A stretch of 9,640 nt of DNA from a bacterium (GCA_025774865.1 JALGZO010000310.1:1-9640), one strand, 5' to 3'. Shown: positions 460-9,588, counted from the stretch's first letter. Numbers and translations are program-made. The notes: generated by a model not told the origin, from the sequence alone.

Positions 460-2691
460 ATGAACTCGAACGTGGCCGAACGAGCAGCCGGACCGGCCCT
501 GGACACGCTGCCCGGAGACGACGTCCGGCAGATCATGTGGCGCTTCAGCGACCGGTACGATCTCCAGATGGTCGTGCAATCGGCGCGCTCCATCGCCCGC
601 GGGCCCGTGGCTCGACTCGTGGCCGAAGGCGCCCGTCACTCGCACGAGTGGACCGACGAGAAGGCGAAGCTCCTCGACGCCTTCGACGAAGCCGGTCTCA
701 CGTCGCTGTACATGAGCCCGGAGCACGGCGGCTATCTCGTCGGTCCGAAGAACCTGGCCATGGCTCTCGCAGCGTTCGAGCTCGCCTGGGTCGACGGCGG
801 CGCCGCTACCTGCAGCCTCGCCGGAAACCTCGCGCTCGCGCCCATTCACGAAAGAGGGACCGCCAAGCAACGTCAGCTCTACATGGCCCGTTGCGTGCCG
901 GGCGGTGAAGAGAAGACCTGGCGCGGCGCGTTCTGTCTCACCGAGCCTCTGCCGGGTGTCGGAGTCGAGACCGGCGTGCTCTCGGGCAAGATCCGAGTGG
1001 CCGAGTGGAAAGAGGGGGCTGAACCTCTGGTCCGAGTGGAGAAGCGAGGCCGCTTCATCACGAACATGGGGTTTGCGAACTTCGTGACCGCGGCCGTGGA
1101 GTCCGACGACGAGCGCATCAAGGGAAGTTGCGTGATCGTGCTCGAAGAAGACGATCCCGGCACGTTCGACCGGGGCACCCCCACGAAGAAGATGGTCCAT
1201 CAACTTTCGTCCACGACGGATCCGATCTTCTCGCTCACGGTGCCCGCCAGTCGGATCGTCGGCGGCTACACCGTCCAGGATCGCGTGATCGTTCCGAATT
1301 ACAACCACGGCCAGGTGATCGAGAGCGTCTTCCGTCGCACGCGCGTCACCGTGGGGCTCATGTCGTCGGCGAAGCTTCTTTCCGCCGTGGAGCCCCTCAT
1401 CCGCTATCAGCGCCAGCGCTTCCGTGGCGGCGCGGCCGAGAATCCGGGAACGCCGCGCTTCGAGATGGGGCTCCAGCAGAAAGAGGACGTGGTGCACCGG
1501 CTCGTCGACGTTTGGGCGACGGGCGAAGCGAGCGCGTCGCTGGGATTCGCCGCGGCACGTCACTTCGATGCCTTCGATCTCGTCGAGATGAAGAAGGAAG
1601 ACGTCTTCCTCGAGCGCGGGATCGACGGTACCCGGGCCCAGATGAGGGAGCTCAAGAAGGTGAAGGAGCGGGCGCTGGAGTATCTGAAGCTGCGACGCTT
1701 GCCGGAGGACGGACGGGATCGCGAGCGATTGGACGTGCTCGCAGCCGATCCCATGGTCGAGTATGTGGTGGGCGACTCCGTCGCGAACGTGATCTGCCCC
1801 GCGTGCAAGCTCTGGAACACGGGCCATGGCGCGAACGTGATGCGCGAGGCCGTCAGCATGATGGGAGGCTACGGCATCACCGAGGACTGTCCCGGCTTCC
1901 TCGCCCACAAGTGGATGGACACGCAGCTCGAGGCCACCTACGAGGGGCCGGAAGCGGTGCAGCGCCGTCAGCTCTCCGTCACCATGACGGACGAGGTCTT
2001 CCTGGCCCAGTTCCGGGGCTGGATCGGCGATCTCCGTCTCATCGCGAGCCGGCGTCCGGGGACCGGAGCGTGCACGCTCGCTTCGTCGATGGAGCTCTGG
2101 CTCTGGACGCTGCAGCATCTTCTGCACTCGGAGGATGCGGACGGGAAGCCGCTCTACCGCGGCCACCGTCAGGGAGTCACGTTCGCGATGGCCGATGCGG
2201 TCTGCTGGCTCCTCGCGTCGCGCTTTCAGATGCTCGACGTCGTCAAGCTGGAGGAGGATGGAGCGGAGGATCCGGAGCTGGCCGAGAGTCGGTCTGGCTA
2301 CGTGCAGTTCTTCACCGACCTCTGTCACGTGCAGGCTGCCCGTGCGGCCGGCGAGGTAGGGCGCATCTGTACGGAGCTCACATTCGGCTACAACCGGCAT
2401 CCTTCCTGGGAAGGCGGCGGCGGCTGCTTCACCGCGAACGAGCTGATCCAACTCGAGGGAATCATGCCGGGGATCGACGCGGGGGAGCACGCGTTCGGCG
2501 ACGTGATCGAGGCCGACGGTTCGCATGCACCGAAGGCCGGCCCTTGCGCCAGCTTCCGCGGGATGGAGCAATTCGAGCGCCTGCGACGGAAGCTGGATGG
2601 CTGCGTCACCGGTGCGCGGCTCGCGAAGGACCGCGCGGCACACGCGCTGACCCACGTGGCGATTCCAGAAGCTCTCGACTACCCGCAGTAG
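460..2691 (+). CDS. Acyl-CoA dehydrogenase-like flavoprotein, long atypical form
   Basis: A 743-residue member of the acyl-CoA dehydrogenase superfamily, expected to oxidise an acyl-CoA thioester at the alpha-beta bond and hand the electrons to ETF. Visible family motifs: FCLTEP (158-163) and FITNMG (199-204) in the FAD-binding middle domain; an arginine-containing helix FRRTRVTVGL (291-300); MMGGYGITED (467-476); and YEGPEAVQRR (494-503), whose E495 matches the catalytic Glu of the usual YEGT motif. Oddities: the AGSD stretch that normally follows TEP is replaced by LPGVGVETG; a highly charged insertion spans about 374-425; and some 230 residues follow the catalytic motif, where typical members of about 380 residues stop soon after it. 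The extra C-terminal region recalls very-long-chain types in position only. The ATG is supported by AAGAGG seven bases upstream. First gene of the operon with its own ETF; the substrate cannot be named. Confidence 0.88.
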   Translation: MNSNVAERAAGPALDTLPGDDVRQIMWRFSDRYDLQMVVQSARSIARGPVARLVAEGARHSHEWTDEKAKLLDAFDEAGLTSLYMSPEHGGYLVGPKNLAMALAAFELAWVDGGAATCSLAGNLALAPIHERGTAKQRQLYMARCVPGGEEKTWRGAFCLTEPLPGVGVETGVLSGKIRVAEWKEGAEPLVRVEKRGRFITNMGFANFVTAAVESDDERIKGSCVIVLEEDDPGTFDRGTPTKKMVHQLSSTTDPIFSLTVPASRIVGGYTVQDRVIVPNYNHGQVIESVFRRTRVTVGLMSSAKLLSAVEPLIRYQRQRFRGGAAENPGTPRFEMGLQQKEDVVHRLVDVWATGEASASLGFAAARHFDAFDLVEMKKEDVFLERGIDGTRAQMRELKKVKERALEYLKLRRLPEDGRDRERLDVLAADPMVEYVVGDSVANVICPACKLWNTGHGANVMREAVSMMGGYGITEDCPGFLAHKWMDTQLEATYEGPEAVQRRQLSVTMTDEVFLAQFRGWIGDLRLIASRRPGTGACTLASSMELWLWTLQHLLHSEDADGKPLYRGHRQGVTFAMADAVCWLLASRFQMLDVVKLEEDGAEDPELAESRSGYVQFFTDLCHVQAARAAGEVGRICTELTFGYNRHPSWEGGGGCFTANELIQLEGIMPGIDAGEHAFGDVIEADGSHAPKAGPCASFRGMEQFERLRRKLDGCVTGARLAKDRAAHALTHVAIPEALDYPQ

Positions 2692-2717
2692 AGGGGCGGA
2701 CGAAGGGAGAGCAGGGC

Positions 2718-4559
2718 ATGGACGTCGAGCGCCAGACCCTCGAGGTGGACATCGCCTGTGTCGGGTTCGGCCCCGCGACCGGCGGCTTCCTCACCACACT
2801 GTCGCGCGCCCTCGAAAACGAGGACGGCACGGGGGCGCTCGAGAGCCGAGTGATGCCCGGGATGCCGCTTCAGGTCGTGTGCTACGAGCGCGCAGAAGAC
2901 ATCGCATTCGGAGTGTCGGGTGCAGTCACGCGGGGGCGCGGCATCCGTCGGTCGTTTCCCGAGCTCGATCCGACCGAGATTCCGATGGCGCAGCGAGTTA
3001 CCGGCGAGAAGGTCCTCTACTTGCTCGACCCGATCGGCGCGAGCCGAAGGACCCGCGGAGTCCAGTGGCTTGATCGAACGCTCGGCATCGTCGGGTCAGC
3101 CCGTCGCGACGACGCGATCGAGCTGCCGTGGATCCCCGGTTTCCTCCGAAAGCACGATGGCTTTCTCTTCTCGCTGGGCCAGTTCAACCAGTGGGTCGGC
3201 GCGCGTCTCACGGGCGAAGGACGGGTGCAGATCTGGCCGGGGATGCCGGTCGCGGAGGCCCTCGTGGAGGACGACCGCGTGGTGGGCGTGCGTCTCCTCG
3301 ATCAGGGTACGGACCGCGCCGGGAATCCGGACGCCGGGTACATGCCCGGCATGGACGTTCGGGCTGACCTTACGGTGGTGGCCGACGGTCCGGTCGGTCC
3401 GGTCGGGCGGCAGCTCGACGAGCGCTTCGGGGTTCCCGAAGGACACGAGCGGGACGACTGGGCGGTCGGGATGAAGATGGTCGTCGATCTCCCCGAGGAC
3501 TCCGGGCTCGAGCCGGGCACGGTGCTCCACACGCTCGGCTATCCGGAGCCGGAGATCTTCGGATTCCTCTATGTGCATCCGGACCGGGTGGCGTCGCTCG
3601 GAATCTTCGTACCGAGCTGGCTGGACTCTCCCGTGCGGTGTTCGTATCGGTATCTCCAGCACTGGATGCAGCATCCGCGACTTTGGCCGCACCTGAAAGG
3701 GAGCGCCATGCGTTCCTGGGGAGCGAAGTCGATTCAGGAGGCCGGGCGGCGCGGCGAGCCGATTCTCGCGGGCGACGGCTGGGCGCGCATCGGAGAGGGT
3801 TCGGGCAGCACGAATGTGCTCACCGGCTCGGGCGTGGACGAAGCGTGGACGACGGGCGCGTTGCTGGCGGAGGGCGTGATTCGATTGCTCCGTGAGAGGC
3901 GCGAGCTCGACGCGAAGAACCTCGACGAAGCCTATGTGCGGCCGCGGCGGGAGAGCTGGGTGGAGCGCGAAGGTCGGATCGCGGAGCACGCGCGCGACGG
4001 CTTTCAGCGCGGGTTCTTGCCGGGTCTCGTCGGTATGGGACTCAGCGGACTCACAGGGGGCAGGCTCCACCTGAAGGGTGACGGGCGAAGGTCGCACGAG
4101 CGCGTCCCCACTCTCGAGTCCTGGTGCGACGGACGGATCTCCGCGCAGGAGGTCCAGCGGCTCCGGGTGGAGAGCGCGGCGAAAGGGGTGGCGCTGCACG
4201 ACGCGATCATGGATCGGTGCGGCTGGCCGCCCATCGAGCCCGACGGCAAGCTCTTCGTCTCGCATCAGGATGCGCTCCTCCTCGGGGGTAAGGTCCAGGC
4301 GCCGCCAGGGTACGCGGACCACGTGGTCTTCACGTACCCACACCTCTGCGAGCACTGCGAGAACAAGCTCTGCATCGAGATCTGCTCGGGTCAGGCAATC
4401 ACTCCCGGGGAGAACGGCGTGCCGCTCTTCGACCGCGAGAAGTGCGTGCACTGCGGCGCTTGTCTGTGGAGCTGCACGCAAACTGTGGAGGGAGAGCTCG
4501 GTCGCAAGAACCTCGCGTTCCGTACGGGCGCGGGCGGTCTGCATACGGTCGAAAACTAG
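2718..4559 (+). CDS. ETF-quinone oxidoreductase/FixC-like flavoprotein fused to an eight-Cys ferredoxin domain
   Basis: A 613-residue protein expected to take electrons from the ETF encoded next door and reduce membrane quinone. The N-terminus has a Rossmann-type FAD motif, VGFGPATGG (15-23), degenerate relative to GxGxxG. A second flavin-contact region (351-385; GDGWARIGEGS, then LTGSGVDEAWTTGALLAE) corresponds to the late FAD segment of FixC and ETF-QO. The C-terminus has two cysteine sets: C544, C547, C552, C556 and C576, C579, C582, C586. Ordinary ETF-QO binds one [4Fe-4S] cluster, whereas this layout looks like a fused FixX-type ferredoxin able to hold two. The first set ends CS rather than the common CP. 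The frame is open far upstream, but 2718 is chosen because the ATG follows AAGGGAG and starts 26 bases after the previous stop. No clear transmembrane helix is seen, so membrane contact would be monotopic, as in ETF-QO. Confidence 0.87.
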   Translation: MDVERQTLEVDIACVGFGPATGGFLTTLSRALENEDGTGALESRVMPGMPLQVVCYERAEDIAFGVSGAVTRGRGIRRSFPELDPTEIPMAQRVTGEKVLYLLDPIGASRRTRGVQWLDRTLGIVGSARRDDAIELPWIPGFLRKHDGFLFSLGQFNQWVGARLTGEGRVQIWPGMPVAEALVEDDRVVGVRLLDQGTDRAGNPDAGYMPGMDVRADLTVVADGPVGPVGRQLDERFGVPEGHERDDWAVGMKMVVDLPEDSGLEPGTVLHTLGYPEPEIFGFLYVHPDRVASLGIFVPSWLDSPVRCSYRYLQHWMQHPRLWPHLKGSAMRSWGAKSIQEAGRRGEPILAGDGWARIGEGSGSTNVLTGSGVDEAWTTGALLAEGVIRLLRERRELDAKNLDEAYVRPRRESWVEREGRIAEHARDGFQRGFLPGLVGMGLSGLTGGRLHLKGDGRRSHERVPTLESWCDGRISAQEVQRLRVESAAKGVALHDAIMDRCGWPPIEPDGKLFVSHQDALLLGGKVQAPPGYADHVVFTYPHLCEHCENKLCIEICSGQAITPGENGVPLFDREKCVHCGACLWSCTQTVEGELGRKNLAFRTGAGGLHTVEN

Positions 4560-4571
4560 AAGGGAGAAGCG

Positions 4572-5381
4572 ATGAGCGCAGAGCTTCACGTCGTCGTCTG
4601 CGGAGGGCTCGTGCCGGATCCGCTGCAATCCCTCGAGCCCGTGTCGGGTCCGGACGGCCCCGGCCTCAAGAACGAAGCGATGCTGCCGTCGGTGCTCGAT
4701 CCCTGGGCGGCGCACGCTCTGTACGAGGCCGCCCACCTGGCGGAGAGCGTGTCGGACGCGCGAGTCTGGCTCGTGAGCCTCGGCCCCAAGGCGCGTCTGC
4801 AACAGCTCATGATGACGATCGCGCAGAAGGTTCCCTTCGAACTGGTGGCGGTCGACGGGCCGGCGACTGGCTTCATGGACTCGCGCGAGGTCGCCTCCGC
4901 GCTCGCGCAGTCGATCGAGGGTATCCCGGAGCTCGACCGGTCGCGACTCCTTCTCTTCGGTGGCTGTGCTTCCGCGTCGCGCGACGCCGGAGTCACGATG
5001 CAGCTGGTGGGCGAGCTTCTCGGCATCGGCGATCAGTTCCTGTCGGTCGATGCGCTCGCCGTCGAAGAGGGGGGTGCCCTGAAGATCCACGAACGCGTGG
5101 AGGGTGGACGCTATCTCGTCTCGCGCTGCGCCGGTCCGCCGGCGGTGCTGGCCTGGGCGACCGGCAGTCTTCCGGAGCCGCCCAACAATCCCAAGATCGG
5201 TATGACGAACATGCGCACGATCATGCCCGCGCTCCAGAAGGCGTCGCCGGCGTCGATGTCGCGGGACGCCGTCACGTACGCGAACGTCGAGGTTCCCGCG
5301 CAGCGGCGAGACACGCGAATCGTCAAAGACGTCCCGACCGACGAGATCGCGCGCGAGCTCGTCGAGTGGATCGGAGGGTAG
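4572..5381 (+). CDS. Electron transfer flavoprotein beta subunit-like (EtfB/FixA family)
   Basis: A 269-residue EtfB/FixA homologue, expected to pair with the next gene product and shuttle electrons from the dehydrogenase to the quinone reductase. Family signs: an early VVVCGGLVPDP strand-loop (7-17), LDPWAAHALYEA (42-53) matching the usual NxxDxxAxExA region, the nucleotide-loop region LLLFGGCASASRDAG (126-140), and the signature-like HERVEGGRYLVSR (173-185). In common ETFs the loop at 126-140 reads GKQAIDDD..QTG (AMP-binding) and in bifurcating ones GxQAxDGDTAQVGP. Neither is present here. The docking loop that in human ETF beta reads PRYATLPNIMKA is PKIGMTNMRTIMPA (207-220), two residues longer and without the anchor leucine in register. 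An AAGGGA Shine-Dalgarno precedes the ATG, and only 12 bases separate it from the previous gene. Confidence 0.88.
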   Translation: MSAELHVVVCGGLVPDPLQSLEPVSGPDGPGLKNEAMLPSVLDPWAAHALYEAAHLAESVSDARVWLVSLGPKARLQQLMMTIAQKVPFELVAVDGPATGFMDSREVASALAQSIEGIPELDRSRLLLFGGCASASRDAGVTMQLVGELLGIGDQFLSVDALAVEEGGALKIHERVEGGRYLVSRCAGPPAVLAWATGSLPEPPNNPKIGMTNMRTIMPALQKASPASMSRDAVTYANVEVPAQRRDTRIVKDVPTDEIARELVEWIGG

Positions 5382-5385
5382 CGCC

Positions 5386-6435
5386 GTGGAACGGATTCTC
5401 TTTCTCGCGCACACCGACTCCGAGAACGCACTTCCTGCCACGGCTCGCGAAGTGCTCCGCGGTGCCGTCGATCTGGCCGGCTCACTCGAGGCCGAGCTCT
5501 CGGTCGGCCTCTTCGGCCGAGAGGTGGAGGCGGCAGCCGATACGATCTCGGCGTGTGGCGCGGTGCGGTTTCTCGGAGTCGCGGGCGACGACTTCGGCGT
5601 ATCCCGCTACTCCACGGACGTCGCCGCCGGCGAGGCTCTCGTCGGCGCGGCGAACCCGACGATCATCATCGCCCCCAGCACGTCGCGGGTGGCGCGCTCG
5701 CTGCCGGGCACGGCGCAGCGGGTCGACGGCCGCGTCGACACGCGGATCACGGGTCTCTCCGTCGAAGGGCGAGAGCTCCGCGTGCAGCGCTGGTATTACC
5801 GTCAGCGAATGGTCGCCACGCAGACCCGCGCGCAGCGTCCCTGGTTCCTCGTCGTGGAGTCGGGCGTGTTCGAGCCGTGGAAGGGCGAGGGCGGAGCGGC
5901 GGAGATCGAGGAGGTATCGGTCCCGTTGACGGATGTCCATCGCCGCACCGAGGTTCTCGGCCTCGAAGAAGCGGCCGCTGACACGCAGACGATCCGCCCC
6001 GATGCCGAGGTTCTCTTCGTCGCGGGGGCAGGATGGACGAAGAAGCAACAAGACGGGCAAGCGCACGCGAAGGAAGCCGAGTCGCTCATCCGCCGCTTCC
6101 TCGACGCGTCGAGAGCCTCCCTTGGCAGCAGCAAGTCGCTCGTGGATCAATCCGGCGAGGGGCAGGACGTGATCCCCTTCATGACGCACCTCAACCAGGT
6201 GGGACAGACCGGCGCCACCCCCCGTCACCCGAAGGGTCTCTCCACGTGTTGCCACGGGGAGGAGCCGCACGTCGTCGGCTGGCGGTTCATCACGGAGCGG
6301 CGCGCGGTCAATCTGGATCCGAACTGCGGCTGGGCGCGCGGAAAGGCCGACGTGCTCTACGTGGCGGATGCGTTCGAGGTGATGGAGAAGGTCAACGCGT
6401 TGCTGGAGGCCAAGGCGACGCCGATCCAGCGGTGA
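5386..6435 (+). CDS. Electron transfer flavoprotein alpha subunit-like (EtfA/FixB family)
   Basis: A 349-residue EtfA/FixB homologue whose C-terminal domain should bind the electron-shuttling FAD. That domain aligns by eye with canonical EtfA: LGSSKSLVD (246-254) for LGASRxxVD, QVGQTG (271-276) for the identical motif, VNLDPN (308-313) for IN.DP.A, and GKADVLYVADAFEVMEKV (319-336) for the ADYGIVGDLFEVVP end. Two flavin-contact positions differ. The conserved Arg of the SR motif is Lys250, and GISGAIQH, which supplies the Ser and His around the flavin ring, is GLSTCCHG (284-291) with a Cys pair. These changes could shift FAD potential or binding. Start is GTG: GGAGGG at 5373-5378 sits seven bases before it and the gap to etfB is four bases, so translation is probably coupled. 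Last gene of the operon; its stop is 21 bases from the convergent LysR gene. Confidence 0.86.
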   Translation: MERILFLAHTDSENALPATAREVLRGAVDLAGSLEAELSVGLFGREVEAAADTISACGAVRFLGVAGDDFGVSRYSTDVAAGEALVGAANPTIIIAPSTSRVARSLPGTAQRVDGRVDTRITGLSVEGRELRVQRWYYRQRMVATQTRAQRPWFLVVESGVFEPWKGEGGAAEIEEVSVPLTDVHRRTEVLGLEEAAADTQTIRPDAEVLFVAGAGWTKKQQDGQAHAKEAESLIRRFLDASRASLGSSKSLVDQSGEGQDVIPFMTHLNQVGQTGATPRHPKGLSTCCHGEEPHVVGWRFITERRAVNLDPNCGWARGKADVLYVADAFEVMEKVNALLEAKATPIQR

Positions 6436-6456: not shown

Positions 6457-7347
6457 TCAGTTCGTCGAGGCCGACTCGCCGAGAACGGAAATGAACGCCC
6501 GGGCGACGGGACCCGGTGGCCGGTCCTTGCGGTGGATGACGGCGATCGGCCTGGTCCAGTCGCCTCCCTTCAGCCGGACGCGCGCCAGGGTTCCCGCGCC
6601 GACCTCCTGATCGGCGGTTCCCCACGGGACGATCGCTACGCCGGCCCCGATCTCCACGGCCCGTTTGATGGTCTCCACGTTGTCGAAGTGGTGTACGACC
6701 TGCATCCTCACGTCCACGTGGCGCAGCCGCTGTTCGATGAAGTGGCCGGTCGGGAGCTCGGGATCGAACGCCACGAAGAGCTCGCCGCGGAGACGGGCCG
6801 GAGCGATGGCGCCGCGGGAAGATGCCAGCCGGTGGCCCGGCGGCACGATGACGACGAGTTCATCGCGGTGGAGGGGCATGGTCACCACCGTGGCGTTCGG
6901 GCTGGGAAAGGCCACGATCCCTAAATCGAGGTCTCGCTCGGTGACCCGGCGGTAGATCTCCTGGCTCGTGAGGTACTGCAGCGCGACGTCGACGGCCGGG
7001 TATCGCTCGAGACATCGCTTGACGTGGGGCGACAGCTCGTGGAGTCCGACGGACGTCACGGCCCCCAGGCGCAGGCGGCCCGCGACCTTCTGGCCGAGTT
7101 CGTCCAGCTCCCGAAGGAGCTCCTCGTAGCGAAACAGGACGTCGCGGCACGCCCGGTAGAGAGCCTCGCCTGCCTTGGTGGGCGTCGCCCCGGCGCGGGA
7201 GCGGGACACGAGGCGGCAGCAGAGCATCTCCTCCAGATGCTTGATTCGCTGTGACACCGCGGAGCGGGTCAGGTGGTTCTCCTCCGCGGCTCGGGAGAAG
7301 CTCGCGCGGTCGACGAGATCGGCGAAGATCTTGAACGATGTCAGCAT
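6457..7347 (-). CDS. LysR-family transcriptional regulator
   Basis: A 296-residue regulator of standard LysR length. The N-terminal winged helix-turn-helix is at about residues 1-60 (FKIFADLVDRASFSRAAEEN, then HLTRSAVSQRIKHLEE), followed by a linker helix and a periplasmic-binding-protein-like effector domain from about 90 to 290. The effector domain shows LRLGAV near its start, DLGIVAF in the first lobe, and NVETIKRAVEIGAGVAIVPW near the end, all typical. It is transcribed away from the hydrogenase genes and shares their 162-bp upstream region, the usual LysR arrangement for controlling a divergent target. It converges on the ETF operon, so control of that operon is less likely. The start is supported by a TGAGG on the minus strand (about 7355-7359). 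The effector molecule cannot be deduced. Confidence 0.93.
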   Translation of the reverse strand: MLTSFKIFADLVDRASFSRAAEENHLTRSAVSQRIKHLEEMLCCRLVSRSRAGATPTKAGEALYRACRDVLFRYEELLRELDELGQKVAGRLRLGAVTSVGLHELSPHVKRCLERYPAVDVALQYLTSQEIYRRVTERDLDLGIVAFPSPNATVVTMPLHRDELVVIVPPGHRLASSRGAIAPARLRGELFVAFDPELPTGHFIEQRLRHVDVRMQVVHHFDNVETIKRAVEIGAGVAIVPWGTADQEVGAGTLARVRLKGGDWTRPIAVIHRKDRPPGPVARAFISVLGESASTN

Positions 7348-7509: not shown

Positions 7510-8670
7510 ATGGCTGACTCGGGAACACTGGGCGCCACCGGTCGATGGACAGGAGGTCCAACGACCGACCGCCGAGCCGTCCTCAAACAAGTGTGTATTC
7601 TTGCAGCGGCTTCGGTGGGACTGCCCTCGTCGGTGGGCGTTCGGATCGCCCTGGCGGCGGCCTCCGGCCTCCGGCCGTCGGTCATCTGGCTGCACTTCCA
7701 GGAATGTACGGGCTGCACCGAGACGCTGCTGCGGACCTCGCACCCGACGCTCTCGAAGCTCATTCTGGATCTCATCTCGCTCGACTACCATGAAACGCTT
7801 CTCGTGGGCGCGGGCCGACAGGCTCACGACGCGTTGCGCGAGACAATGGAGCAGCGCGTCGGGAAGTACGTCTGTGTGGTGGAGGGATCCATCCCCACCG
7901 CCGACAACGGCGTCCACTGCAAGATCGGCGGCCGCCCGGCCGTGGAGATCCTGCGCGAGGTCGCCGATCGCGCGGGTGCGATCATCGCAATTGGCTCCTG
8001 CGCGGCGTTTGGCGGTCTCGCGGCGGCCGATCCCAACCCGACGAGAGCGAAGGGCGTTTCCGACGTTCTTCCGGACAAGACGATCGTCAACATCCCCGGC
8101 TGTCCTCCGAATCCGTACAACTTCCTCGGCACCGTGCTCCAGTACGTCGCTCTCGGGGGGCTTCCGGAACTCGACGAGAAGGGACGTCCGAAGTTCGCGT
8201 ACGGCCGTACGATTCACGAGCATTGCCCGCGCCGACCGCACTTCGATGCCGGACGTTTCGTACGCAAGTTCGGCGACGAGGGGCACCGGGAAGGCTGGTG
8301 CCTCTACGCGGTGGGATGCAAGGGACCGCAGACCCACGCGAACTGCCCCACACAGCAATTCGGCGAAGTCGGTGCGTGGCCGGTGGGGGTCGGGCATCCG
8401 TGCGTTGGGTGCACGGAGGAGAAACTCCTGTGGAGAACGGCGATCCACGAAACGATCCCGGTGGAGAGCCCGACCTCACCGGCCTTCTATCCCCCGGTGG
8501 AGCCGACCCGGCAAGGTGTGAGCCCCGTCGCGACGGGCGTGGCCGGCCTCGTCGCGGGCGGTCTTCTCGGAGCAACGATCATGGGTGCCCGAAAGCTGAG
8601 CCGGAAGCACATGGAAGAAGAGGAGGGCGGTGAGAAAGGCGGGACGGCCGGTCGAGAGAAAGGGACTTAG
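7510..8670 (+). CDS. hybO: [NiFe]-hydrogenase small subunit, Tat-exported, membrane-anchored (HybO type)
   Basis: A 386-residue small subunit that carries electrons from the NiFe site of the large subunit through three iron-sulfur clusters. The N-terminus has a twin-arginine signal, DRRAVLK (20-26), then a hydrophobic stretch, so the complex faces the periplasm. Proximal cluster ligands: C66 and C69 in ECTGCTE, C164 in GSCAAFGG, C198 in IPGCPP. Distal cluster: H236, C239, C264, C270. Medial three-Cys cluster: C279, C298, C301. The two extra cysteines that mark oxygen-tolerant enzymes are glycines (G68 and G169), so this is the standard, probably oxygen-sensitive form. A hydrophobic segment at about 336-357 is the membrane anchor, followed by a charged tail (KHMEEEEGGEKGG). 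A HybA-like gene follows at once, as in hybOABC operons. The large subunit is not in the window. Confidence 0.95.
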   Translation: MADSGTLGATGRWTGGPTTDRRAVLKQVCILAAASVGLPSSVGVRIALAAASGLRPSVIWLHFQECTGCTETLLRTSHPTLSKLILDLISLDYHETLLVGAGRQAHDALRETMEQRVGKYVCVVEGSIPTADNGVHCKIGGRPAVEILREVADRAGAIIAIGSCAAFGGLAAADPNPTRAKGVSDVLPDKTIVNIPGCPPNPYNFLGTVLQYVALGGLPELDEKGRPKFAYGRTIHEHCPRRPHFDAGRFVRKFGDEGHREGWCLYAVGCKGPQTHANCPTQQFGEVGAWPVGVGHPCVGCTEEKLLWRTAIHETIPVESPTSPAFYPPVEPTRQGVSPVATGVAGLVAGGLLGATIMGARKLSRKHMEEEEGGEKGGTAGREKGT

Positions 8671-8673
8671 GTC

Positions 8674-9588
8674 ATGTCCATGGACCGGCGTACCGCGCTC
8701 AAGAGGCTGCTGGCTGGCGCGACGGTCGCCGCGACCGGGCCCACGGTCACGTCGGCGCGCGAGCCGGCCCCGCCTCGAGAAGATGCCGTCGGGATGCTCT
8801 ACGACGCGACGACCTGCATCGGGTGCAAGGCGTGTGTCACCGCCTGCAAGAACGCCAACGGCGACCGCGCCGAGTGGGGTGGCGTCCCCGGCGAGCAGAA
8901 CCTGGGCGCTCTCTACGACGCTCCGATTGATCTCTCGGGGCGCACCAGGAACATCATCAAGCTGGCGAAGGAGAGTGATCGCACCTCGTTCGTGAAGCGT
9001 CAGTGCATGCACTGCTTGGAGCCCGCCTGCGCCTCGGTCTGCATGATGGGTGCGATGCAGAAGCGGCGGTGGGGAGTGGTCACCTACGACGTCAGTCACT
9101 GCATCGGTTGTCGATACTGTCAGGTCGCCTGCCAGTTCAACATTCCGAAGTTCGAGTGGGATTCTCCCACCCCGACCATCGTCAAGTGCGAGATGTGTTA
9201 CCACCGCCTCGTCGAAGGCGGGATCCCGGCTTGCTGCGAGGCGTGCCCGGCTGAAGCCGTGGTCTTCGGGCGATACGAGGAGCTCTTGAACGAGGCGAAG
9301 AACCGCATCGAGAGCAAGCCAGATCGTTACGAGCCGCATGTGTACGGAGAGACGGAGGGGGGCGGCACCCAGGTTCTCTACCTGACGGCCAAGGGCTTCG
9401 ACTTCGAGAAGCTGGGTCTTCCCGACATCGGCGACGAGCCCGTGCCGGAGCTGGCGGAGACGATCCAGCACGGCGTGTACCGCGGATTCATCGCACCCGC
9501 CGCCCTGTATGCGGCCCTGGGCTTCGTGTTCATGCGCCACCGACGGAACACCACAGAGTCGGCGGAAGGGGAGGGGGCGACATCGTGA
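8674..9588 (+). CDS. hybA: HybA-like periplasmic four-cluster ferredoxin of the hydrogenase
   Basis: A 304-residue iron-sulfur subunit expected to pass electrons between the hydrogenase small subunit and the quinone-reactive membrane subunit. It begins with a Tat signal, DRRTALKRLL (4-13). Four [4Fe-4S] ligand sets are visible: C48, C51, C54, C58; C111, C114, C119, C123; C143, C146, C149, C153; and C172, C175, C187, C191, with an additional C188 beside the last set. This is the arrangement of HybA and related DmsB/NrfC-type proteins. A C-terminal hydrophobic helix (about 270-286, GFIAPAALYAALGFVFM) followed by RHRR anchors it in the membrane, as in HybA. The start lies three bases after the previous stop and is preceded by GAGAAAGGG. 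Its stop overlaps the next start as GTGA, which points to translational coupling. Confidence 0.93.
   Translation: MSMDRRTALKRLLAGATVAATGPTVTSAREPAPPREDAVGMLYDATTCIGCKACVTACKNANGDRAEWGGVPGEQNLGALYDAPIDLSGRTRNIIKLAKESDRTSFVKRQCMHCLEPACASVCMMGAMQKRRWGVVTYDVSHCIGCRYCQVACQFNIPKFEWDSPTPTIVKCEMCYHRLVEGGIPACCEACPAEAVVFGRYEELLNEAKNRIESKPDRYEPHVYGETEGGGTQVLYLTAKGFDFEKLGLPDIGDEPVPELAETIQHGVYRGFIAPAALYAALGFVFMRHRRNTTESAEGEGATS

Follow-up and report, generated by a model that had tools for sequence, protein, structure and literature searches.

A divergent acyl-CoA dehydrogenase, ETF and quinone oxidoreductase operon forms a separate lineage in more than ten bacterial phyla

Organization of the operon

The window analysed is an entire contig of 9,640 bases (C313) from a 4.7 Mb bacterial genome of 785 contigs, which is 92.65% complete with 8.3% contamination. 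Positions 460-6435 contain four co-directional genes separated by short gaps, in the order acyl-CoA dehydrogenase (ACAD), ETF:quinone oxidoreductase (QO), ETFβ and ETFα. The features are as follows.

460..2691, + strand: large divergent ACAD of 743 aa; PF02771 and PF00441; VLCAD/FadE5-like fold with a C-terminal helical domain; catalytic Glu495
2718..4559, + strand: QO of 613 aa; PF21162; C-terminal dicluster ferredoxin domain with 8 Cys and two putative [4Fe-4S] clusters
4572..5381, + strand: divergent ETF beta subunit of 269 aa; PF01012 (E 4e-10); orthologues 59-63% identical
5386..6435, + strand: divergent ETF alpha subunit of 349 aa with a GTG start; PF01012 (E 3e-17), PF00766 unmatched; orthologues 54-65% identical
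6457..7347, - strand: LysR-family regulator, downstream of the module and convergent; PF00126 and PF03466

Pfam recognizes the N- and C-terminal domains of the ACAD, an ETFQO_UQ-bd domain with weak ferredoxin matches in the QO, and an ETF domain in each of the last two products. The module genes are real, since homologues of 54-72% identity are found in dozens of genomes with the gene order kept. The initial annotation read the locus as a four-gene path from an ACAD through ETF to quinone. The Pfam assignments and the conserved homologues confirm all four parts, but the QO, which had been listed last, stands second.

No close relative of the window's LysR protein lies beside the module at other loci, so the regulator is not a conserved partner. 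Further downstream, positions 7510-9588 encode a HybO-like NiFe hydrogenase small subunit and a HybA-like ferredoxin subunit, a pair that is cut by the contig end. The G+C content of the contig is 0.669, compared with 0.667 for the contig that carries the canonical ETF pair of the same genome (C618). Besides the module, this genome encodes that canonical pair and five canonical ACADs. The module is therefore a second, extra system there.

Conserved and rewritten sites in the four proteins

The AlphaFold model of the ACAD (pLDDT 86, pTM 0.86) is best matched by 3owa, 2z1q, FadE5, DmdC and VLCAD, with Z scores of 27-30. The protein shares with the large ACADs (VLCAD/ACAD9, FadE5, FadE1/2 and DmdC) the fold, an extra C-terminal helical domain and the position of the catalytic Glu. 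It differs from them in its low sequence identity (13-18%), a helical insertion near residues 385-445 and its private ETF. The catalytic residue E495, part of a YEG motif, is invariant in 39 homologues and aligns with the YEG of butyryl-CoA dehydrogenase (4l1f). The middle domain PF02770 is unmatched by Pfam in the window ACAD.

The QO model (pLDDT 87) is nearest to porcine ETF-QO (2gmh), with TM scores of 0.78/0.82 over nearly the whole length, and the sequence match to 2gmh has a phmmer E value of 1.3e-29. The next best fold is EtfC (7koe_C). Eight cysteines, C544, C547, C552, C556, C576, C579, C582 and C586, are invariant in 39 homologues and are arranged as CX2CX4CX3C and CX2CX2CX3C. This pattern departs from the four-cysteine arrangement of a single cluster (Fer4_ETF_QO), and Pfam reported no match to PF05187 in the window QO. 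Members of the ETF-QO family contain one [4Fe-4S] cluster; the eight invariant cysteines suggest two such clusters in the module QO.

The ETFα sequence is rewritten at two canonical motifs, with GASRAxVDAG changed to GSSKSLVDQS and GISGAIQH to TCCHGEEPH. The flavin-site arginine is replaced by an invariant lysine, and the Ser, Thr and His positions and QVGQTG are retained. According to Talfournier 2001, as cited in PMC12630350, the flavin-site arginine of Methylophilus ETF stabilizes the semiquinone by about 200 mV. PF00766, the ETFα FAD domain, misses the window ETFα, and the module copies are absent from the PF00766 matches in 48 module genomes.

In ETFβ, the AMP-site stretch and the recognition loop NEPRYxxLxxIxKA are replaced by other conserved sequences. 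The stretch aligned with the canonical IDxDxAQxG is conserved and ESASRGAGATLQMVG-like, the alignment being remote and the exact equivalences uncertain. Most module ETFβ proteins carry Gly, Cys or Trp at the position aligned, again remotely, with the Arg of the GRQAID motif. We take this Arg to be the equivalent of Arg140 in T. maritima EtfB. Arg140 is essential for bifurcation (PMC10734219). Sequence searches for solved relatives returned distant matches only, with a best E value of 0.047 for ETFβ.

It had been proposed that the four proteins keep their fold motifs, depart from consensus at cofactor or docking sites, and have diverged jointly. Both points hold: E495 and the eight QO cysteines are invariant, the ETFα and ETFβ sites are rewritten, and the joint divergence is real.

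In the usual view, ETF is a β-oxidation carrier shared among dehydrogenases. The module has the same three-step path as canonical EtfAB, with AMP in the β subunit, and the mitochondrial-type ETF-QO, which serve many ACADs. In contrast to that system, it has a dedicated ACAD in the operon, a QO with eight rather than four cluster cysteines, an ETFα that PF00766 does not see and in which the flavin Arg is Lys, and an ETFβ with an altered AMP stretch and docking loop. The membrane-linked bifurcating ETFs (EtfABCX/FixABCX) are alike in that the ETF feeds a quinone reductase with a flavin and two [4Fe-4S] clusters. The two clusters of EtfX belong to the quinone branch (PMC10734219), and the putative cluster number of the module QO resembles that of EtfX. 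However, the ferredoxin part of the module is fused to the QO in one chain instead of being divided between separate EtfC and EtfX proteins, the unit includes an ACAD, which EtfABCX does not have, and the GRQAID Arg of bifurcating ETFs appears to be absent by the remote alignment. No description of the four-protein module was found in the open-access papers examined; an earlier mention elsewhere is possible.

Related domains also occur in giant fusions. Two module-bearing Verrucomicrobia genomes encode polypeptides of 2,553 and 2,484 aa, each in one open frame (L145:21-7679, + strand; L146:3513-10964, - strand), with ETF-QO, acyl-CoA dehydrogenase, ETF and ETFα FAD domains. A module-bearing Kutchimonas genome encodes a 1,758 aa ACAD-ETF-ETFα fusion (L147:2091-7364, + strand). 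These fusions belong to a lineage separate from the module, because PF00766 recognizes their ETFα domain.

Distribution and genome content

The ETFα alignment was used to scan 84,980 species genomes and produced 563 pattern matches; a relative is encoded at 461 of these. The divergent ETFα is thus encoded at no fewer than 461 genome loci. The best 80 of these 461 (58-65% identity) were retained for analysis and span more than ten phyla, including Geobacter and other Desulfuromonadales, Omnitrophota, Planctomycetes, Verrucomicrobia, Acidobacteria, Gemmatimonadota, Latescibacterota, Methylomirabilota, Myxococcaceae, Bdellovibrionales, Eisenbacteria and Fibrobacteria. All 48 complete sets, the window included, have the order ACAD-QO-ETFB-ETFA on one strand.

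The four genes also stay in one genome when the operon is split. An orthologous ACAD (61-69% identity) is encoded elsewhere in 14 of the 15 genomes that have no full ACAD beside ETFB-ETFA; the single genome without an unlinked ACAD, G071, has the QO. The QO is present in all 16 module genomes tested. Among 60 genomes related to that of the window, nearly all of different families, three encode the ETFα (54-57% identity), and all three have the four genes. The genes lie together in G049 (L026), and are split into ACAD+QO (L130) and ETFB+ETFA (L025) in G016 and into ACAD (L131) and QO+ETFB+ETFA (L027) in G027. The four gene trees are congruent, with Mantel r values of 0.71-0.82 that none of 500 permutations reached, a congruence to which shared descent also contributes. 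Near-constant co-occurrence and matching topologies, the two checks that the initial annotation had named, support its idea of a co-evolved private set. The ACAD/ETF/QO module is a separate lineage that moves as a unit.

A genome from the window genome's own family, G002, encodes an orthologous ACAD of 67% identity (L129:7677-9878, contig C115), and no matching QO or ETF was found in that genome. This ACAD may be an orphan, a contaminant or a remnant. In Omnitrophota, an α-acetolactate decarboxylase gene lies between the QO and ETFβ genes (L036:8194-8958; also L031, L032, L040, L047, L052 and L059), often accompanied by a PNPOx-like gene. Some Omnitrophota (L032:11940-15591) carry a canonical ETF-QO gene followed by a fused ETFβ-ETFα gene (~655 aa), at least about 1 kb after the module.

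The module was compared with β-oxidation genes in the 48 module genomes. At a threshold of E 1e-20, thiolase is unmatched in 17 of them; 17 have no canonical ETFα over the PF00766 cut-off, and 23 have no canonical ACAD as judged by PF02770. All three are apparently absent from 14 genomes, and at least one is present in 34. Most module genomes are MAGs, for most of which completeness is not established, and a single absence may be a gap; the triple absence in 14 genomes is less easily a gap. PF02770 is also unmatched in G016, G027 and G049, which are 96-100% complete. A separate canonical ETF is retained in many of the module genomes that have β-oxidation genes. The module is separable from, and independent of, β-oxidation genes in many genomes. 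A private ETF had tentatively been explained by a substrate unsuited to the general one. This reason is not supported as stated: the 17 genomes without canonical ETFα and the 23 without canonical ACAD seem to have no other system of this kind. Since the set recurs in more than ten phyla, in some genomes without the ordinary genes of fat breakdown, its job probably lies outside that process.

Neighbouring genes and possible function

Apart from enoyl-ACP reductases and locally shared synteny in Omnitrophota, no conserved flanking genes were found at the roughly 80 loci (the best 80 of 461). At 7 of these loci, in four independent settings, the module adjoins an enoyl-ACP reductase gene, and three types of the enzyme are represented. 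The neighbour is FabMG at five Geobacterales loci, FabV at L081, and at L062 a FabL-like protein 26 bases after ETFα. Enoyl-ACP reductases account for 7 of 413 genes within three genes of the module and for none of 348 genes further away. Four independent settings compare with 0.18 expected (Poisson P ~4e-5) at an assumed base rate of 1.5 per 3,500 genes, and the true weight of the statistic is lower because the base rate was assumed and the category was chosen post hoc. The window's own copy has no enoyl-ACP reductase beside it and adjoins the LysR gene and the NiFe hydrogenase.

FabMG was found in 4 of the 48 module genomes, in each case at the module. Among 146 Desulfuromonadia genomes, fabMG occurs in 72 and the module in 6; fabMG being common and the module rare, fabMG does not need the module. 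Module-free and module-bearing Geobacterales sites (L133-L144, L029, L035, L041, L048 and L069) were compared. In the module-free genomes, fabMG occurs in either of two arrangements, PlsY-BamD-FabMG-HypE or RecO-DnaB-FabMG. The module adjoins fabMG in both, on opposite sides, and in one it lies between fabMG and hypE; the surrounding genes are shared.

Two further links were considered. A replacement of enoyl-ACP reductase by the module is rejected for most genomes, as 29 of 48 have a FabI whose best match is at least 40% identical. A link to NiFe hydrogenases was suggested by the HybO/HybA pair in the window, NiFe hydrogenase genes clustered a few kb away from the module in L081, HypE beside it in L035 and L069, and HypD/E near L027. 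This candidate was also dropped. Relatives without the module already have hypE next to fabMG, so the HypE adjacency reflects where the module was inserted. This makes the hydrogenase link less persuasive, and the remaining cases are too few.

The favoured reading, held tentatively and at somewhat less than even confidence, is that the module is a dedicated acyl-thioester:quinone oxidoreductase outside β-oxidation, likely acting in the oxidative direction on an acyl chain of fatty-acid synthesis. We infer the following path. The large ACAD would interconvert acyl- and 2-enoyl-thioesters on its FAD. The private ETFα/β would dock on this ACAD and carry the electrons, which the two-cluster, flavin-containing QO would exchange with the membrane quinone. 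The substrate would most likely be acyl-ACP or acyl-CoA from fatty-acid synthesis, and a saturated acyl chain would be oxidized to the 2-enoyl form with electrons passing to quinone. Gene neighbourhood, namely the 7 of about 80 loci chosen post hoc, is what points to this substrate and direction.

The first alternative, which takes up the single-substrate route of the initial annotation, is a dedicated catabolic dehydrogenase that oxidizes one particular acyl-CoA, for example one from branched-chain, aromatic or long-chain substrates, and feeds the respiratory chain with its electrons. The nearest folds of the ACAD are those of long-chain or special-substrate enzymes (VLCAD, FadE5 and DmdC), the window's genome also has its general ETF and five canonical ACADs, and the patchy distribution in Desulfuromonadia fits an accessory catabolic trait. 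However, recurrent genes for a CoA ligase, hydratase, hydroxyacyl-CoA dehydrogenase, thiolase or transporter are absent from the roughly 80 loci, and 14 of the 48 genomes apparently have no thiolase, canonical ACAD or canonical ETFα. We regard this role as rather unlikely.

Flow in the opposite direction is improbable. Quinol, supplied for instance by a hydrogenase or by other dehydrogenases, would then reduce a 2-enoyl thioester via QO, ETF and ACAD, making the module an extra enoyl reductase or an electron sink. Enoyl-reducing ACAD/ETF systems are known (Bcd-Etf and caffeyl-CoA reductase), and both the three types of adjoining enoyl-ACP reductase genes and the hydrogenase genes near the window copy and L081 are consistent with such flow, but the FabI already present in 29 genomes argues against a replacement and HypE in L035 and L069 is accounted for by the insertion site. 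That the module is an ordinary β-oxidation ETF system merely diverged in sequence is very unlikely and largely refuted by genome content: β-oxidation could be present in the 34 genomes with at least one marker, but the other 14 appear to have none, many β-oxidation genomes hold a separate canonical ETF, and the module lineage has a docking loop and cofactor sites of its own.

A further reading, by analogy with FabX, is that unsaturated (or otherwise modified) fatty acids could be made without oxygen: an acyl-ACP dehydrogenase served by a private ETF and ETF-QO would oxidize the growing chain against the quinone pool. We consider this quite improbable. FabX, the acyl-ACP dehydrogenase/isomerase of unsaturated fatty acid synthesis in H. 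pylori, couples flavin-dependent acyl-ACP oxidation to Fe-S electron storage, for which its authors drew a comparison with ETF-QO (PMC8626469). It is a possible functional analogue of the module only, with no homology: unlike the module, FabX is a single NMO-family FMN protein, and O2 is its only known acceptor. FabA was not found over the cut-off in the 146 Desulfuromonadia genomes, with or without the module, so that this test of a role in unsaturated fatty acids does not discriminate.

Across more than ten phyla, the module pairs a distinct ETF lineage with a dehydrogenase and a quinone reductase of its own, and in some genomes it is apparently the sole ETF/ACAD system. Annotation pipelines likely label its parts 'acyl-CoA dehydrogenase' and 'ETF', so genomes risk being credited with a fatty-acid oxidation that they may not have. 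Should the enoyl-ACP reductase link prove functional, the module would offer a testable entry to crosstalk between fatty-acid synthesis and the quinone pool. The FabX-like route, if true, would tie membrane-lipid composition to respiratory redox state in several largely uncultured phyla.
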